Assembly (NCBI GenBank): GCA_017643365.1
Contig: JAEPNO010000010.1
Coordinates: 1-64,000, forward strand
DNA: 64,000 bases
DNA from: Balneolaceae bacterium
GTDB taxonomy: Bacteria > Bacteroidota > Rhodothermia > Balneolales > Balneolaceae
Reading direction: 5' to 3'
The translations under genes and the position numbers were made by a program. Within the stretch, counting starts at the first letter, position 1, and each line of letters begins with the position of its first letter. This document shows positions 25,028 through 32,641 of this stretch, piece by piece. A model generated the notes under the pieces. That model had not been told where the DNA came from. It saw nothing but the letters and a program-made list of their open reading frames with translations, and made no database searches.

Positions 25028-25780
25028 ATGAAGTTTCCTAAAAAAATAGTGGGCGTAGCATTCGTTGCCATGTTCGCTTTTACACAATTAGTACATGCAC
25101 AATTCGAAGGTCAAATCAGCATGTCGATTTATTCACAAGATGACGGTGTTCTCACCGAAGAAAATGTGGTAAACCTATACACAACTCAAGAGCGAATTCT
25201 TATCAAAGGTGAAGATAAAATCAATATTTCGGATGGAATGATGGAAGCCGAAGGAATTCTGATTCGCAGCGATATGCGTGATTTTGTGATCATGATGGGA
25301 GAGAAGGAAGCACTACGATTTACGAAAGAAGAACTCGAAGGCATGTTCTCGATGATGAGCATGATGAGCGGTGGCGAAATGGACGATAAAAAATCGGATG
25401 CCAATTATTCTTATACCAACGAAGTACGAACCATTCAAGGCTTGCAAGCAACTGAACTTAGAGTAATGGGTAAAAATGAGAAAAAATATCTATCCGTTTG
25501 GTTAACAAATGATTTAGATATTGATTGGGGAATGCTGTCAGAGCCTTGGAAAAACGTTCCTTCTTCATTATCTGGAGATGTGAATCAAGTAACGCAGGAG
25601 TTTAAATCTCGAAATTTCCCATTATTGATTGAAGTAACTGAGAATGGTGAGACCGATAAAATTTTCGAAGTTACTAAGGTGAGAAAATCGCGAATCGCAA
25701 AAGATATGGTTGAAATGCCGGCCGGACTTCAGCTCATCAGTTTGCAGGAAATGATTATGAAAGCGATGATGAGCAACTGA
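25028..25780 (+). CDS. Exported DUF4412 protein
   Basis: A 250-residue protein with a signal peptide ending near VHAQ (residues 22-25). The mature part matches DUF4412-type proteins of this phylum: a first strand FEGQISMSIYSQ, ERILIKGEDKINI, RSDMRDFVIMMGEKEALRF, and a TIQGLQATELRV strand followed by LSVWLTNDLDIDWG. The fold resembles LolA/outer-membrane lipoprotein carriers in style, but function is unknown. It is Met-rich in the segment MFSMMSMMSGGEMDD. Confidence 0.75.
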   Translation: MKFPKKIVGVAFVAMFAFTQLVHAQFEGQISMSIYSQDDGVLTEENVVNLYTTQERILIKGEDKINISDGMMEAEGILIRSDMRDFVIMMGEKEALRFTKEELEGMFSMMSMMSGGEMDDKKSDANYSYTNEVRTIQGLQATELRVMGKNEKKYLSVWLTNDLDIDWGMLSEPWKNVPSSLSGDVNQVTQEFKSRNFPLLIEVTENGETDKIFEVTKVRKSRIAKDMVEMPAGLQLISLQEMIMKAMMSN

Positions 25781-25803
25781 TCTAAAATATTATTTAAAAA
25801 AAG

Positions 25804-25838
25804 AAAAGCGACCCCTAACTAATGGAGTCGCTTTTTTT
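25804..25838. terminator. Bidirectional terminator between the DUF4412 and CHRD genes
   Basis: AAAAGCGAC and GTCGCTTTT pair around cccctaactaatgga. T-runs on both strands suit the two convergent genes. Confidence 0.85.
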
Positions 25839-25855
25839 ATTTCTGGGAGTGACGA

Positions 25856-28492
25856 CTATTTAATTAGTGTCATTCTCTTGGTGATAGTATTGGCACCGGC
25901 TGTTAAGCGGTAAATATATACACCTGAAGCTAGTGAACTTGCATCAAATTGTACGGTATGAGAACCGGCAGAGAAGCGCTCGTTAGCAATTGTAGCTACT
26001 TCTTGTCCAATTAAATTGTACACCTTAATGGTTGCATTACCTGCTTCGGCTAAACTAAATGCAATGTTTGTTGATGGGTTGAACGGGTTAGGATAATTCT
26101 GTTCCAGTTCGAAAGATTCAACGGCACCTAGTTCTTCAGTTTCGTTAGAAACAACTTGTCCACGCTCTAGATTCGCTGATCTAGGTTCGCTTGCTGTTTG
26201 ATCGCTTCCATCACTTACTAATACTCGGTGATATACGGTTGCTGTTGCACCTACTTCAACATCTAAGCTGGCTAAGAGTGCATCAAGCGTTGCAAAATCA
26301 GTTTCGAATTTAGTTTCTGAACCAACATTTGCATTAACTACAATGTTTGTGAATGCAGAGTCGGTTGCTAACTGCCATATGTAAGCAATTTCATTCTCAT
26401 CGTTAGAAGCTGTCCATGTTGCTTCAAACATAGTGGTACTGCTACCTGAAACTTCCAGCGTTGCACCTTCTGCAGGAGAAGTGATTTCTGATGAATCAGG
26501 AAACATATTGTCAGCGAATAATAACTGTCCACGAAGCTCGCCAGATCCAAACGCTAAAGAGTGAATGTTGGCATAAAAGCCTTCAGCATATAAGGTGGTC
26601 ATCTGCTCGGCAGTTAACTCAAACGTATTCTCAGCGGCGGTATAAGCACCTGCTGTATCGGCATCGATTGCCGTGTTGAGTAAAACTGAAACATCACCAT
26701 TTGCGGCTACACCACCATCGTGAAGATGTGCACCACCTGCAATAGCAGTATTAATGGTGCCTTCAAGCTCGGTATATCCACCTACAACAGTTGCGATATT
26801 TCCGTTAACCTCTACGTTAAGTTTACCCATTGCATTGGTTACAATCGGCTGCACTTCATTTACACCTGAAAGTGTAGTTTTAAAATACGCTGTAGCTTCG
26901 GCTAAAAGTTGTCCGCGTAATTCTCCACCACCGTTTTCTTTGGTGTGAATGTTCAGATAATAATTTCTTGCCATGAATTCCGCTTTTTGCTCAGCAGTTA
27001 ATTCAAAAGCATTTTCAGAAGCTAGGTATGAACCTGAACGTAAATCAGCTTCAACATCCGCATCCAAAATAAAATCTACACCGCCATTGGTTCCGGCATG
27101 TGCATTGTGTAAGTGTGATCCACCTGCTACTTCGGCATCAAAATCTGAACTCAGATTCGAAAAAGAACCGGAAAGGAACAGTGAGTCGCCACGAATCTCG
27201 GCTAGTACAGCACCTGAAGCTTCAGTTTTTACACTTGGCACTTCGGCACTACCTGATAATGTAGCATAAAAAGCTGCTGTTACAGGAGGTGTTACCTGTC
27301 CGCGTAACTCGCCACTACCGTAAGCCTTCGTATGGATATTTACATACATCATACGATTCATAATCGCAGTTTTTTGCTCTGCAGTTAATTCAAACCGATT
27401 ATCTTCTGGTTTATATGTACCTGAAAGTTTGTCTTCTGAAAGAGTAGCATTTAGTGAAATCATCACGCTACCATTAGCTCCTGCTTCACCCATATGAAGG
27501 TGAGATCCGCCGGCTATTTCAGTATCAAATTCGCCGGATAGATTGGCAAAAGAACCTGATGCAATTAAAGTGTCGCCTTTAATCTGGAAAACCATTCCAC
27601 CGCTCGCCATTGTTTTGGCAGCAGGCATTTCGTACGCACCTGATAAGTTAGTACGGAAATAAGCATCTGCGCTTTGTACTAGCTGTCCTCGAAGTTCGCC
27701 GCCGGCAAAGGTTGCTGAGTGAATATTAATATACATTCCTTGGCTTTCTAGCGTTGCTTTTTGCTCCGCTGTAAGTTCAAAAGTATTACTTGCGGCTACG
27801 AAAGTACCACTTTTGCTATCAGCGTTAATGGTTGGTGATAGTGCTACCACTACACCACCTGCTTGTCCAGCCATTCCAGAATGGATGTGAGATGCGGCAT
27901 AATCGCCACTTAAGTTTTCGAACGAACCTTCAACAACAAGTTGATTGCCGTCTAAAGTTGCTGTTACCATACCGCTAGCAGAGCTAACAATAGATGGAAC
28001 TTCATTGCTTCCGCTTAAATGTGCTGTAAAATCGATTGACACATTTTCAATCAATTGTCCGCGTAATTCGCCACCGCTAAAGTTGTCAGTGTGGATGTTG
28101 ATATACAATCCTTCCTGATTTAGCTGTGTAATTTGTTCTGATGTTAGTGTGAATGTGTTGCTGGCTGCAACGTATGTTCCGCTCATATTATCAGCAGCTA
28201 CATCAGCTGAAAGCGCTGTAAGTACGCCACCGTTTTCACCGGCTGCTCCCATATGTATATGAGAAGCTGAATAATTTGATGATAAATTCTCGAATGAACC
28301 TTCAATAGTTAGTTGGTCTCCGGTTAAAGTAGCTGTAACCATTCCGGTTGCATCTGTTGTTACTGGAGGTACTTCGTTACTACCGCTCAGTTGAGCAGTA
28401 AATCCAGTTTGGGCTTGCGCATAGGATGTCATTCCGAGTAGCATCAAACCTAGAACTGTACAAATAGATAGTATCTGTTTTGTCATTTTCAT
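25856..28492 (-). CDS. Secreted protein with five CHRD domains and a T9SS type A sorting domain
   Basis: An 878-residue exported protein. A signal peptide covers about 1-27. Five successive CHRD (chordin-like) repeats of about 120-130 residues each begin with a LSGxxE(V/M)-type strand and end with INIH..GGELRGQL or close variants. They start near residues 31, 153, 277, 401 and 527. A fibronectin-like linker follows (about 665-780). The C-terminus has ENYPNPFNPSTNIAFSLA and ends in TKRMTLIK, the type A T9SS domain that directs export and surface anchoring. The CHRD function in bacteria is unknown. It lies downstream of a sigma/anti-sigma pair and has the same promoter-like motif as that operon. 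Confidence 0.9.
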   Translation of the reverse strand: MKMTKQILSICTVLGLMLLGMTSYAQAQTGFTAQLSGSNEVPPVTTDATGMVTATLTGDQLTIEGSFENLSSNYSASHIHMGAAGENGGVLTALSADVAADNMSGTYVAASNTFTLTSEQITQLNQEGLYINIHTDNFSGGELRGQLIENVSIDFTAHLSGSNEVPSIVSSASGMVTATLDGNQLVVEGSFENLSGDYAASHIHSGMAGQAGGVVVALSPTINADSKSGTFVAASNTFELTAEQKATLESQGMYINIHSATFAGGELRGQLVQSADAYFRTNLSGAYEMPAAKTMASGGMVFQIKGDTLIASGSFANLSGEFDTEIAGGSHLHMGEAGANGSVMISLNATLSEDKLSGTYKPEDNRFELTAEQKTAIMNRMMYVNIHTKAYGSGELRGQVTPPVTAAFYATLSGSAEVPSVKTEASGAVLAEIRGDSLFLSGSFSNLSSDFDAEVAGGSHLHNAHAGTNGGVDFILDADVEADLRSGSYLASENAFELTAEQKAEFMARNYYLNIHTKENGGGELRGQLLAEATAYFKTTLSGVNEVQPIVTNAMGKLNVEVNGNIATVVGGYTELEGTINTAIAGGAHLHDGGVAANGDVSVLLNTAIDADTAGAYTAAENTFELTAEQMTTLYAEGFYANIHSLAFGSGELRGQLLFADNMFPDSSEITSPAEGATLEVSGSSTTMFEATWTASNDENEIAYIWQLATDSAFTNIVVNANVGSETKFETDFATLDALLASLDVEVGATATVYHRVLVSDGSDQTASEPRSANLERGQVVSNETEELGAVESFELEQNYPNPFNPSTNIAFSLAEAGNATIKVYNLIGQEVATIANERFSAGSHTVQFDASSLASGVYIYRLTAGANTITKRMTLIK

Positions 28493-28541
28493 AAGTGTTT
28501 ATTTGATTTATTATTAAGAACCCAATTGGGTAGATCTGTAT

Positions 28542-28572
28542 ATGAATACGCAGACTCTTGACGATTGGATTG
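28542..28572 (-). promoter_or_regulatory. Putative ECF sigma promoter of the CHRD gene
   Basis: On the minus strand CAATCCAAT (28564-28572), an 11-bp spacer and TGCGTATTCAT (28542-28552) match the region before the ECF sigma gene (30092-30122) with identical spacing and one mismatch in the 20 motif bases. The start codon is about 50 bp downstream. This looks like a -35/-10 pair read by the neighbouring ECF sigma factor. Confidence 0.65.
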
Positions 28573-28589
28573 GTCTTGCATCTTCTACA

Positions 28590-28624
28590 AAAAGAAAAAG
28601 GCACTTATCGTTCGATAAATGCCT
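28590..28624 (-). terminator. Terminator of the sigma/anti-sigma operon
   Basis: On the minus strand AGGCATTTATCG and CGATAAGTGCCT pair with an AA loop and one mismatch, followed by a T-rich run. It separates the anti-sigma gene from the CHRD promoter. Confidence 0.85.
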
Positions 28625-28666
28625 AATATCATATACTTATGAAGTAAAGATATGTTCCTGATCCCC

Positions 28667-29461
28667 TTAGTTCATGGCGCCCAACATAAAAATATCACCG
28701 GTAGGTTGTTGCGAACCACCACTTGGTTCAAGTGATACGGCAAACGCTCCTTGATTTGCATCGTTAGCAAGATTTTCGATGGTAAAGAAATCATCTCTTT
28801 CCGAATCGCGAACTGCAAAAACTCCGGCGCTTATAGGTTGATTATCCAATATGAACCAAAGTTGGTAATCGCGAGTGGTTGGTATTTCGGGTAAGTTTGC
28901 AACCTGGAGCAGCGCGCGTCCATTGCTCTTATCCCAAACTACTTTTCCATATCCTTCAGGATTTACATCCAAGCCATCCATCAAAATAAGATCAACATCA
29001 CGAGCTTCAAGAATAGTGAGTAATGCCTCTTTACGCTCTACTTCGGTTTCTAGTAATTCGATGCGTGAAGTTTGTTCACTTATTAATGCATCTTTCGATT
29101 CTAAATCGTCGGTTAAGCCTTGGCTATAAAAAAACAAGCCTAGTGAAGTAAGCAGTAATACGAAAGAAGCTGCTATGCTAAATCGTGAAACCGGAATGCT
29201 AAATATTGTTGCTTGTTTTTTCCGCTCTATCGAAGCCCAGGCCATTGCCATGAGTTCGTCGCGTACCGATCTGCTAGGCGCTTCCGGGCTAACCCCAAGC
29301 GCTAATTCTGCAGCAATCTCCTTCATTTCGTTATGAAATAAAATCTGCGTTTCGGTTGCATTTTCGAGCATTATCGCAAATTCTTGCTCTTCTTGTGCTG
29401 ATAATGCTCCTAGAACCGATGCTGCACAGTATTCTTCAAATCTGTTTTCTGCCTCGCTCAT
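28667..29461 (-). CDS. Anti-sigma factor, RskA family
   Basis: A 264-residue single-pass inner-membrane protein that would hold the ECF sigma factor inactive. The N-terminal cytoplasmic part (about 1-95) includes the acidic segment EYCAASVLGALSAQEEQEFA, typical of anti-sigma domains. A membrane helix (SIAASFVLLLTSLGLFFY, about 103-120) is followed by a coiled-coil stretch. The periplasmic RskA domain has GYGKVVWDKSNGRALLQVANL, RDYQLWFILDNQPISAGVF and AVSLEPSGGS. Its ATG shares one base with the sigma stop (TAATG), implying translational coupling. No zinc-binding HxxxCxxC motif is visible. Confidence 0.9.
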   Translation of the reverse strand: MSEAENRFEEYCAASVLGALSAQEEQEFAIMLENATETQILFHNEMKEIAAELALGVSPEAPSRSVRDELMAMAWASIERKKQATIFSIPVSRFSIAASFVLLLTSLGLFFYSQGLTDDLESKDALISEQTSRIELLETEVERKEALLTILEARDVDLILMDGLDVNPEGYGKVVWDKSNGRALLQVANLPEIPTTRDYQLWFILDNQPISAGVFAVRDSERDDFFTIENLANDANQGAFAVSLEPSGGSQQPTGDIFMLGAMN

Positions 29462-30075
29462 TATTCTGCCTCGTCTGCCAAAAGTGTTCGTAATTTAATC
29501 ATTGCATCTCTCATTCTTGTCTTGATTGTGCCCAATGGAACATCAAGCTCTTCTGAAATTTCCGACTGGCTTTTGCCTTCGAAATAGGCTACTTGAATAA
29601 CCTGGCGTTGTTTGTCGGATAATTGCTTCATGGCTTGTGTTACTTTAGCTGCACGTTCATTTAATATGGTATCTTCGAGTGGATTTCGCTCGGTTGAGTA
29701 CAGTGTTATGTGTACATCATCGTCGTCCAAGCTCGAACTTTGTTTTTTTTGTTCTTTGTAAACTTTCGATCGCAAACGATCGATGGCTTTATTGCGAGCG
29801 ATAGTACAAATCCATGTATATCCGCTACCTGATTGAGCATCAAACTGATAGGCTTTTTCCCAAATTAAAGTGAATACTTCCTGAAGTAAATCTTCTGCTT
29901 CAGTTCTCTTTTTTAGGATGGAAAGGATTAGACCAAACAACAATTTGTTGTAGTGATCATATAATTCTCCCAATGCCTGAGGTTCTTTAGCAACAATGCG
30001 GCGTAAAAGCGCGCGATCTCGTTTGTCGTTTTTGACCAGATACTGCCCGGCCAATGAAATAAAAAAATAGAGCAT
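29461..30075 (-). CDS. ECF sigma factor (SigK/RpoE type)
   Basis: A 204-residue extracytoplasmic-function sigma factor. Region 2 spans about 25-95 with ALGELYDHYNKLLFGLILSI, AEDLLQEVFTLIWEKA and WICTIARNKAIDRLRSK. Region 4 spans about 140-200 with LSDKQRQVIQVAYFEGKSQS and ISEELDVPLGTIKTRMRDAM. It is paired with an RskA-type anti-sigma factor. A promoter-like motif identical in layout to that of the CHRD gene lies just before its start, which indicates autoregulation. If that promoter is used, the leader is only about 13-16 nt. Confidence 0.92.
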   Translation of the reverse strand: MLYFFISLAGQYLVKNDKRDRALLRRIVAKEPQALGELYDHYNKLLFGLILSILKKRTEAEDLLQEVFTLIWEKAYQFDAQSGSGYTWICTIARNKAIDRLRSKVYKEQKKQSSSLDDDDVHITLYSTERNPLEDTILNERAAKVTQAMKQLSDKQRQVIQVAYFEGKSQSEISEELDVPLGTIKTRMRDAMIKLRTLLADEAE

Positions 30076-30091
30076 ATATGGCTATTTGCTA

Positions 30092-30122
30092 ATGAGTACG
30101 CAAGTTCCGATTAATTGGATTG
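30092..30122 (-). promoter_or_regulatory. Putative ECF sigma promoter of the sigma/anti-sigma operon
   Basis: On the minus strand CAATCCAAT (30114-30122), an 11-bp spacer and TGCGTACTCAT (30092-30102) match the CHRD promoter. The -35 part begins immediately after the DUF255 stop codon. The words resemble ECF promoters with an AATCC-type -35 and CGTA-type -10. Confidence 0.65.
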
Positions 30123-32153
30123 CTACCGTCTGTTTAATAATGCGATTAATTCGTCAAGATTGCTAACCGGAGCTTTACAACTATAGTTCTCACAAACGTA
30201 AATTCTTGTCGCCTCACCTTTTGGAGTGTGCAACTTGGTAAAAGGGGCGAGTTCCTCTAATTCTGAATCCGATGATTTCCATAGCGTAATCATAGATGGC
30301 AAAAACTCCGTTTTAAGATAGTCACGCAGATCAGAGGTATCGTCTTTTCCGGCAGCTACTACAATTTCACCGGGATTGTGATTCATCAGTTGAAGTGCCA
30401 TCATACCCATGGTGATACTAGAACCGGAGCGAATCAATTCTGACGAGAATAATTTACCAAGCTGATCAGCTTTGTTTAACCAATCTTGGTTTTCGGTGAT
30501 TTTACCAAGTTGAAGTAATAAGTATAAACCTAAAGAGTTTGAGGAAGGAATTGCTCCGTCATAAATCTGTTTCTGGAGCCCTAGCGCTTGATCTTCGGTG
30601 AGTTTTGTTAAGTAAAATCCACCTTGCTCATGATCCCAACACTGATGTATGGCTTCATCCATTAAACCGATTGACTGCTTCAGATATTCAACATTAAAAG
30701 TGCAGTTATACAGCTCTAAACCCGCCCACGATAAGAAAAGATAATCATCAGCGAAGGCCTGTATGTCGGCTTCATCATCACGAAATCGGTGCATTAGCCG
30801 ACCATTTTCGCGTAAGTGTTGTTCGATGAATCCCCATGAATTTTCAGCTGCCTTCAAGTACTCCGGGTTTTTAAAAGCAGCTCCGGCTTTGGCAAAAGCG
30901 GCGATCATCATAGCATTCCAATCGGTAAGGATTTTGTCATCTCTCAAAGGCCGTACGCGTTGTTCTCTTTCTCTGAATAATCCTGCTCGCAGCTGATCCC
31001 ACTTCACTTGATCTTCGCTGTTCAAAACTTCCGAAAGGTGCAGAATATTGGCCCCGGTTTTTTGCTTTGTGGCTTCATCCTCGAAATTCCCTTCGTCAGA
31101 AATATTAAAATGCTTACCAACGAAATCGTACTCTTTTAAAAGAGCTTCTTTTAACTCATCGACCTGCCACACATAAAATTTTCCTTCTGCGCCTTCGCTA
31201 TCTGCATCCTCGGCAGAGTAAAATCCACCATCAGCATCGGTAAGCTCACGAAGAACGTACGTAGCGATTTCATCTACCGTTTGTTTAAACAGAGGTTCTT
31301 TGGTGAGTTGCCAAGCCTCGGTATAGGCCATCATCAAAAGTGCTTGATCGTACAGCATTTTCTCGAAATGGGGAAGTAGCCACTCAGCATCGGTGCTGTA
31401 ACGGTGAAAGCCAAATCCTACATGATCCCAAAAACCACCAAGTCGCATAGCTTTTAAGGTTGAGCTAACCATCTCTAAAAACCGAGAATCGCCGGTATGG
31501 TGATACTGCCGCAACAAAAACATGAGATTGTGCGGCGATGGAAACTTGGGAGAAGCTCCAAATCCGCCATGCTTATCGTCATAACTCTGCGCCAATTGCT
31601 CGGCAGCATAATCGATGGCTTCGGTTCCGGGGAAATGCCCCGGTTTAAACTCCTGCGTTTGCCCAAATCCTTTTCGAATTTGAGTTATGGCTTTTTGGAT
31701 GCGTTCCGGTTCGTTGTTCCACATTCCGGTTATTCCCGGGATTAACTGCCGCATCCCAATCCGCCCAAAACGTGCTTCTTTAGGGATGTAGGTGGCAGCA
31801 AAAAACGGTTCTTTGTTGGCATTCATCACAACAGAAAGCGGCCAGCCACCATGCCCATTAATCAGTTGGCAAACTGTCATATAAGTCGCATCTATATCCG
31901 GACGTTCTTCTCGATCTACTTTTATATTGATGAAGGCGTTGTTCATCATTTGAGCGATGGTTTCGTCTTCAAAACTCTCGTGCTCCATCACATGGCACCA
32001 ATGGCAGGTAGCGTATCCAATCGAAAGAAAAATGGGTTTATTTTCAGCTTTCGCAGCTTCAAAGGCTTCATCGCACCATGGGTACCACTCAACAGGATTG
32101 TCTTTGTGTTGAAGTAAATATGGACTTTTTGAATGGGCTAATCGGTTGGGCAC
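30123..32153 (-). CDS. Thioredoxin domain protein (DUF255/YyaL, spermatogenesis-associated protein 20 family)
   Basis: A 676-residue protein with an N-terminal thioredoxin-like domain (about 1-160). It has [21 protein letters not shown] and the redox motif [16 protein letters not shown]. An (alpha/alpha)6-barrel of the N-acylglucosamine 2-epimerase type follows ([52 protein letters not shown]). The family is conserved from bacteria to humans without a settled function. The start is GTG at 32153, only 2 bp after the mgsA stop, so the two genes are co-transcribed. Confidence 0.92.
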
Positions 32154-32155
32154 AG

Positions 32156-32641
32156 TTATTCTATTTCTTTTTTAAAACGTCGGCTGTAATCTACAATAAA
32201 TCGCTCATACGGTGTTTCCATTAGTGGTGAACTGATTAAAAAATCTGCAGAACTTCGATTACTGGCAATGGGAATATTATACACCACGCTAATTCGGAGC
32301 AGGGCTTTAACGTCAACATCGTGTGGCTGGGCCTGGAGCGGATCCCAAAAGAAAATCATGATATCAATTTCGTTATCGATGATTGCACTTCCAATTTGAA
32401 GATCGCCACCTAGCGGACCACTTTTAAAGGTAAAAACAGGTTGACCTAAACGCTCTGCGGCTAAAGCTCCGGTGGTTCCGGTACCAAATAAATTATGTCT
32501 CGATAGTTTCTCCTTGTTGTATTCGGCCCAATCCAATAAGTCTAGTTTGCGATGGTCGTGGGCTATTAAAGCAATATTCTTTTTGGGGCGCATCGGTAGA
32601 ATTGAATCCGCGATAGAAGGGTGTTGTTTTTTTACTGGCAT
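32156..32641 (-). CDS. mgsA: Methylglyoxal synthase
   Basis: Converts dihydroxyacetone phosphate to methylglyoxal and phosphate, a glycolysis bypass. Family motifs are present: [47 protein letters not shown] (with the catalytic Asp) and [21 protein letters not shown] place the start at the ATG 32641 (161 residues); a GTG at 32671 would add an uncharacteristic MYLWAHKLIT. It is the first gene of a two-gene unit with the thioredoxin/DUF255 gene. Confidence 0.93.

Follow-up and report, generated by a model that had tools for sequence, protein, structure and literature searches.

The M. tuberculosis SigK promoter has the −35 element CCATCC and the −10 element CCGAAT, SigW-type promoters of Bacillus subtilis have the form TGAAAC-N16-CGTA, and ECF sigma factors often regulate one another. 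Excerpts of PMC7509140 describe SigK as autoregulated, with secreted targets and with conserved SigK sites in Actinobacteria, and report the two SigK cysteines from 94% of ECF18 and 56% of ECF19; an excerpt of PMC7406223 places RskA in AS19-1. The two cysteines are not strictly defining for such pairs. Here, we analyze a Balneolaceae locus in which a SigK-like sigma factor operon and a gene for a secreted five-CHRD protein are each preceded by a copy of one bipartite motif. Judging from the sequence and its conservation, we consider it highly likely that the two motifs are promoters of one ECF sigma factor (29461-30075, minus strand), which would drive its own operon, the CHRD gene, and about seven other loci. 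All parts of the locus, including the promoters and hairpins, lie on the minus strand of the window, the 64 kb stretch of DNA that was analyzed:

25804..25835, minus strand: terminator-like hairpin after the CHRD gene (12 pairs, 6 G-C)
25856..28492, minus strand: gene for a secreted protein of 878 aa (P0003) with five CHRD domains and a T9SS type A sorting tail (PF07452; PF18962; TIGR04183)
28547..28550, minus strand: predicted −10 element CGTA of the CHRD gene promoter, 16 bp after CAATCC (from sequence and conservation)
28567..28572, minus strand: predicted −35 element CAATCC of the CHRD gene promoter (from sequence; motif before 17/17 linked CHRD genes)
28599..28624, minus strand: terminator-like hairpin and T-run behind the sigma/anti-sigma unit and immediately upstream of the CHRD promoter (11 pairs, 4 G-C)
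28667..29461, minus strand: gene for an anti-sigma factor of 264 aa (P0002) with an RskA C-terminal domain (PF10099 RskA_C, E 9.8e-23)
29461..30075, minus strand: gene for a SigK-like ECF sigma factor of 204 aa (P0001; Sigma70_r2, Sigma70_r4)
30037..30075, minus strand: conserved hydrophobic N-terminal segment, the first 13 sigma codons (from hydropathy and codon-position identities; also in orthologs L069-L107)
30097..30100, minus strand: predicted −10 element CGTA of the sigma operon promoter, 16 bp after the −35 element
30117..30122, minus strand: predicted −35 element CAATCC of the sigma operon promoter (from sequence; HMATCY core at 38/38 orthologs and 16/17 held-out orthologs)

The sigma gene encodes a 204-aa protein with PF04542 and PF04545/PF08281 above cut-off and no other domains, as in group IV ECF sigma factors, and it scored 100.4 bits against TIGR02937 (cut-off 42.9). 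Its second-best NCBIfam model is SigK (NF007228), at 155.9 bits against a curated cut-off of 226, which it does not reach, and its best PDB chain is 4nqw, M. tuberculosis SigK, with an E of 4.6e-29. In the 4nqw alignment, Ala148 and Leu198 stand where M. tuberculosis SigK has Cys133 and Cys183, a correspondence that uses a hand-counted numbering offset of 17 in the 4nqw chain; neither of the two cysteines is present. The anti-sigma start overlaps the sigma stop, which places an RskA-type gene directly behind the sigma gene as in SigK/RskA-type pairs. The anti-sigma factor matches PF10099 at 81.3 bits (cut-off 29.4), its start resembles by eye the AS19-1 helix motifs quoted in the excerpt of PMC7406223, and no meaningful match to it was found among PDB sequences. 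On these sequence likenesses, the pair is SigK/RskA-like. Some genomes hold a second, more distant SigK-like sigma/anti-sigma pair (L105 on contig C10 of G032; L104 on contig C1 of G038), which is without the motif.

The third gene product had been read as a five-CHRD protein, and PF07452 matches it in five stretches (E 1e-117; 388 bits against a cut-off of 24.1). By a crude criterion under which L085 and L086 are weak candidates, a hairpin with a T-run lies between the anti-sigma and CHRD genes, at the same place as here, in 12 of 17 related loci; in L070, another gene sits in that gap. With one hairpin before its promoter and another behind it, the CHRD gene looks like a unit of its own.

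The sequence-only reading had placed two copies of CAATCCAAT-N11-TGCGTAYTCAT on the minus strand (30092-30122 and 28542-28572), a single mismatch apart; both copies are found there, and they differ by C/T at the Y. They are the only perfect copies of CAATCCAAT-N11-TGCGTA in the window and in the whole 3.77 Mb genome, which has 21 matches in all, the other 19 with two mismatches. The positions likewise fit the proposed ECF promoter: CAATCC starts 47 bp upstream of the sigma ATG and 80 bp upstream of the CHRD ATG, and the CGTA of the sigma operon promoter is followed after 21 bp by the sigma ATG (30075). No Rfam match was found at 25600-32200. A DUF255 (PF03190)/thioredoxin-like gene (30123-32153, minus strand) has its stop at 30123, abutting the CAATCC of the sigma promoter, and adjoins the sigma gene in many relatives, an arrangement in which read-through could give basal sigma expression.

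At an E of 1e-20, the sigma gene was found in 65 of the order's 128 genomes, among them Balneola, Gracilimonas, and Balneolaceae MAGs. At 20 loci with at least 55% identity, exact CAATCY-N16-CGTA or one-letter variants of it stand ~45 bp before the sigma start. We covered 41 sigma loci (the window and 40 others) and then 17 more; the paralogues L104, L105, and L108 (33-38% identity) are not among the 38 loci counted as orthologs, and weaker sigma places (E >1e-32; e.g., those of G033, G074, G084, G086, G089, G090, G110, G122, and G123 and the second places of G037) lie outside the counts. A loose pattern, HMATCY-N16/17-CGTA, was then fixed and scored within 200 bp upstream. It precedes 38/38 sigma orthologs and 17/17 linked CHRD genes, compared with 0/40 anti-sigma genes and 10/452 other genes, and shuffled sigma upstream regions gave a mean of 0.2 and a maximum of 3 matches of 38. 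Because the pattern had been chosen on the first 38 loci, which makes that count partly circular, it was tested on 17 unseen orthologs, 16 of which carry it (G127 does not). The motif persists down to sigma orthologs of 40-50% protein identity and is found in none of the three more distant paralogues (2 to 4 mismatches).

The informative core is [CAT][AC]ATC[CT]-N16/17-CGTA, here CAATCC-N16-CGTA. This part of the motif as first delimited stood, and its extra AAT, TG, and TCAT letters proved mostly unconserved: of the 34 sigma promoters whose spacer is 16 bp, 5 retain AAT after CAATCC, 16 retain TG preceding CGTA, and 2 retain YTCAT after CGTA. The search pattern requires all four CGTA letters, so the invariance of CGTA in the logo is by construction. 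The spacer is 16 bp in 34 of the 38 sigma promoters and 17 bp in the other 4, and the two boxes lie shortly upstream of the gene, as in an ECF promoter. Dimeric regulators also make bipartite sites of fixed spacing, and the motif might accordingly be the split operator of a transcription factor and not a promoter. We hold this to be very improbable, since the halves are unrelated as direct or inverted repeats, the 16- or 17-bp spacer (34 + 4 of 38) is like that between ECF −35 and −10 boxes, and the site lies ~35-55 bp before most sigma starts. We therefore treat the motif as a predicted ECF promoter, and its footprint is claimed for the order only, because, with the spacer loosened to 15-18, a match was found in just 2 of 19 sigma relatives outside the order (18 of them from the phylum, the other a Demequina contig) and in none of the remaining 17.

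Before the CHRD gene, three Balneola genomes carry two motif copies ~115 bp apart (G004, L243; G001, L244; G005, L245). The motif precedes one of four unlinked tandem-CHRD genes in sigma-positive genomes (that of G097, not those of G075, G078, and G098), none of seven genes for small CHRD proteins, and none of six tandem-CHRD genes of sigma-negative genomes; in this set, 3 of 30 CHRD loci did not reach the gene start, and the tandem-CHRD places of G106 lie outside it. The motif-free small CHRD genes and sigma-negative tandem-CHRD genes indicate that the motif is not a general requirement of CHRD genes.

Exact sites were sorted into three classes: intergenic and no more than 300 bp from an ORF start, intergenic without such a start, and inside an ORF. 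The 106 exact sites of nine sigma-positive genomes divide into 55, 15, and 36 in these classes, and the 79 of eight sigma-negative genomes into 1, 5, and 73. The contrast in sites before genes, 55/106 versus 1/79, has a Fisher p of 5e-16 in a test that ignores kinship, and with sigma and CHRD sites removed it is 37/87 versus 1/79 (p 1e-11, kinship again being ignored). Within genera g2 and g4, the sigma-negative genomes G003, G006, and G021 have 0/15 intergenic sites and the sigma-positive genomes G004, G008, G023, and G025 have 25/43. The sequence-only reading had itself named a frequent motif not tied to gene starts as the outcome that would count against it; this was tested here and is not what the sites look like. 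Its proposal that the sigma factor controls its own operon and the CHRD gene is supported by the order-wide footprint, the near-absence of sites before genes in sigma-negative genomes, and the hairpin between the two units.

The motif had also been offered as a probe for the rest of the regulon, which it is once trimmed and not as given: CAATCCAAT-N11-TGCGTA matches two sites only without mismatch, and for this reason the probe was shortened. A version containing CGTAYTC, allowed at most two mismatches, was discarded as giving too many sites for use (171, versus 57 for the reversed control). The exact pattern CAATCY-N16-CGTA has 10 sites in the genome itself and 10 in its reversed control, and as the count is no higher than the control, the place and conservation of sites were used instead. 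Nine of the 10 precede an ORF by 28-203 bp, and one lies inside a long ORF that is lon-like by eye. Each of the nine is also found at the corresponding gene of the congener G032, whose total is 15 sites. The predicted regulon loci are as follows:

sigma/anti-sigma operon
five-CHRD gene
DUF3047 protein
GalE-like protein (by sequence)
T2SSE-type ATPase
cytochrome-like lipoprotein (weak cytochrome c match below cut-off)
receiver-domain protein
lipoprotein with four DUF7282 domains (G000, contig C48:154770-156400, L201)
130-aa protein without a Pfam match

The site of the cytochrome-like gene also overlaps an opposing ORF. In the nine site pairs shared with G032, 89/90 motif letters are identical, compared with 85/144 spacer positions and 105 and 123 of 180 flanking positions, that is, 58-68% identity around the motif. 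This bears on whether the likeness of the two sites in the window might be passive, due to chance or to a short duplicated stretch retained through shared ancestry, as could be argued from the full-length string having just two perfect copies in the genome and from the surroundings of the CHRD site being alike in the congener too (15/16 spacer bases). Such an origin is scarcely credible given the divergence around the nearly invariant motif, the persistence of the motif to orthologs of 40-50% identity, and its absence before genes in sigma-negative genomes; as a sole cause it is refuted by the held-out orthologs (16/17) together with the sigma-negative contrast.

Each of seven additional genomes also has the sigma and CHRD sites (that of the G025 sigma gene was classed as inside an ORF through an over-long ORF), and three of the seven have the DUF7282 site (5/9 overall). 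Genus-specific sites precede MsrA (PF01625) and SelR/MsrB (PF01641) genes in G025 and DUF4331 genes in G004 and G008. MsrA/MsrB genes stand behind the motif in sister genera (L174 and L178 of G025; L155 of G023), and outside the order an MsrB-like gene, so named by eye, stands behind a SigK-like operon (L283 of G342); these methionine sulfoxide reductase genes hint at oxidant stress as the signal.

The DUF7282 gene occurs in 15 of the 128 genomes, all of them sigma-positive (Fisher p 2.5e-5, kinship being ignored here too), and the pattern fixed beforehand precedes it in 11 of the 15, five of which had already been seen with the motif. In G031, the first mechanical ATG is 34 bp upstream of the site, which makes a true start further in probable, and upstream of the G016 gene nothing recognizable was found. 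The DUF7282 promoters of G010, G015, and G018 (genus g3) read AAATCT-N16-CGTG, and their sigma promoters likewise have AAATCT, a joint shift that is expected if one sigma factor reads both. A different ECF sigma factor could instead recognize the motif and act above the SigK-like operon and the other genes, as a first look gave ~19 loose sigma-like candidates in the genome itself and ECF sigma factors commonly cross-regulate. This is very improbable, however, because sites before genes track the presence of the SigK-like gene (55/106 versus 1/79), also within genera g2 and g4, because the site precedes the SigK-like gene itself in nearly every ortholog, and because the −35 variant changes jointly in genus g3, before both the sigma and the DUF7282 gene.

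If the SigK-like protein is the sigma factor concerned, its sigma4 domain would read CAATCC as the −35 element and its sigma2 domain CGTA as the −10 element, 16 bp apart. RNA polymerase carrying this sigma factor would transcribe the operon of the sigma factor and its RskA-type anti-sigma factor, closing a feedback loop, and the same sigma factor would act on the separately terminated five-CHRD gene, whose product would be exported by the type 9 system, and on about seven other loci in its own genome. The membrane-spanning anti-sigma factor would presumably hold the sigma factor until an envelope signal frees it.

The oddest feature of the system is the hydrophobic N terminus of the sigma factor. 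A hydrophobic stretch of ~12 residues opens the sigma orthologs of the order, with a mean hydropathy >1 over residues 2-12 in 35 of 37 ORFs, the two exceptions having over-long mechanical starts. Identities by codon position over sigma codons 2-14 at 20 loci are 0.63, 0.85, and 0.42, showing that the segment is translated. M. tuberculosis SigK does not align over it, and most outgroup sigma relatives, by eye, lack a hydrophobic N terminus. In a structure model (mean pLDDT 74, pTM 0.46), residues 2-13 form a helix at low confidence, and with pLDDT <50 for residues 1-5, the model tells little about the N terminus. The segment might be a membrane anchor or a prosequence of the sigma factor. A bolder view, which we think rather unlikely, is that the SigK-like sigma factor of this order is membrane-tethered by its conserved hydrophobic N-terminal helix, as a pro-sigma factor or by a peripheral anchor, beside its RskA-type control, and that the regulon it drives is specific to the order and consists of surface proteins with tandem domains (CHRD, DUF7282).

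For a SigK/RskA-like system in the Balneolaceae, there is now a promoter motif that has been checked, along with an initial prediction of the regulon. Tandem CHRD and tandem DUF7282, both secreted domain types that have received little study, are linked to a single regulator, so that their function can be tested through induction or deletion of one sigma gene. In the open literature searched, no paper joined "CHRD domain" and "sigma factor," and pairwise searches of DUF7282, Balneolaceae, sigma factor, and CHRD gave no paper on the subject among titles and abstract beginnings. At the promoter, the −35 element CCATCC of M. tuberculosis SigK shares ATCC with the CAATCC found here, and CCATCC itself is found before some sigma orthologs of the order, whereas the −10 element is CGTA here and CCGAAT in M. 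tuberculosis; no published SigK promoter consensus was found in the open literature searched. The SigW-type promoters of B. subtilis share the 16-bp spacer and the CGTA −10 element and differ in the −35 element. The strings CGTA and TGAAAC were searched for in PMC3498285 and not found there. The sigma factor further differs from M. tuberculosis SigK in falling below the NF007228 cut-off (155.9 versus 226 bits), in the replacement of both SigK cysteines, in its hydrophobic N-terminal segment, and in predicted targets that carry CHRD and DUF7282 domains. It shares with that system the RskA-type anti-sigma gene adjoining the sigma gene and, as excerpts of PMC7509140 describe M. tuberculosis, an autoregulated operon and control of secreted proteins, there MPT70/MPT83. 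The same excerpts describe a SigK/RskA gene pair in another outer-membrane bacterium, Yersinia enterocolitica (ECF19), a likeness drawn by description. An autoregulated ECF regulon is of a kind already known, and the one predicted here is ordinary in kind and well supported.
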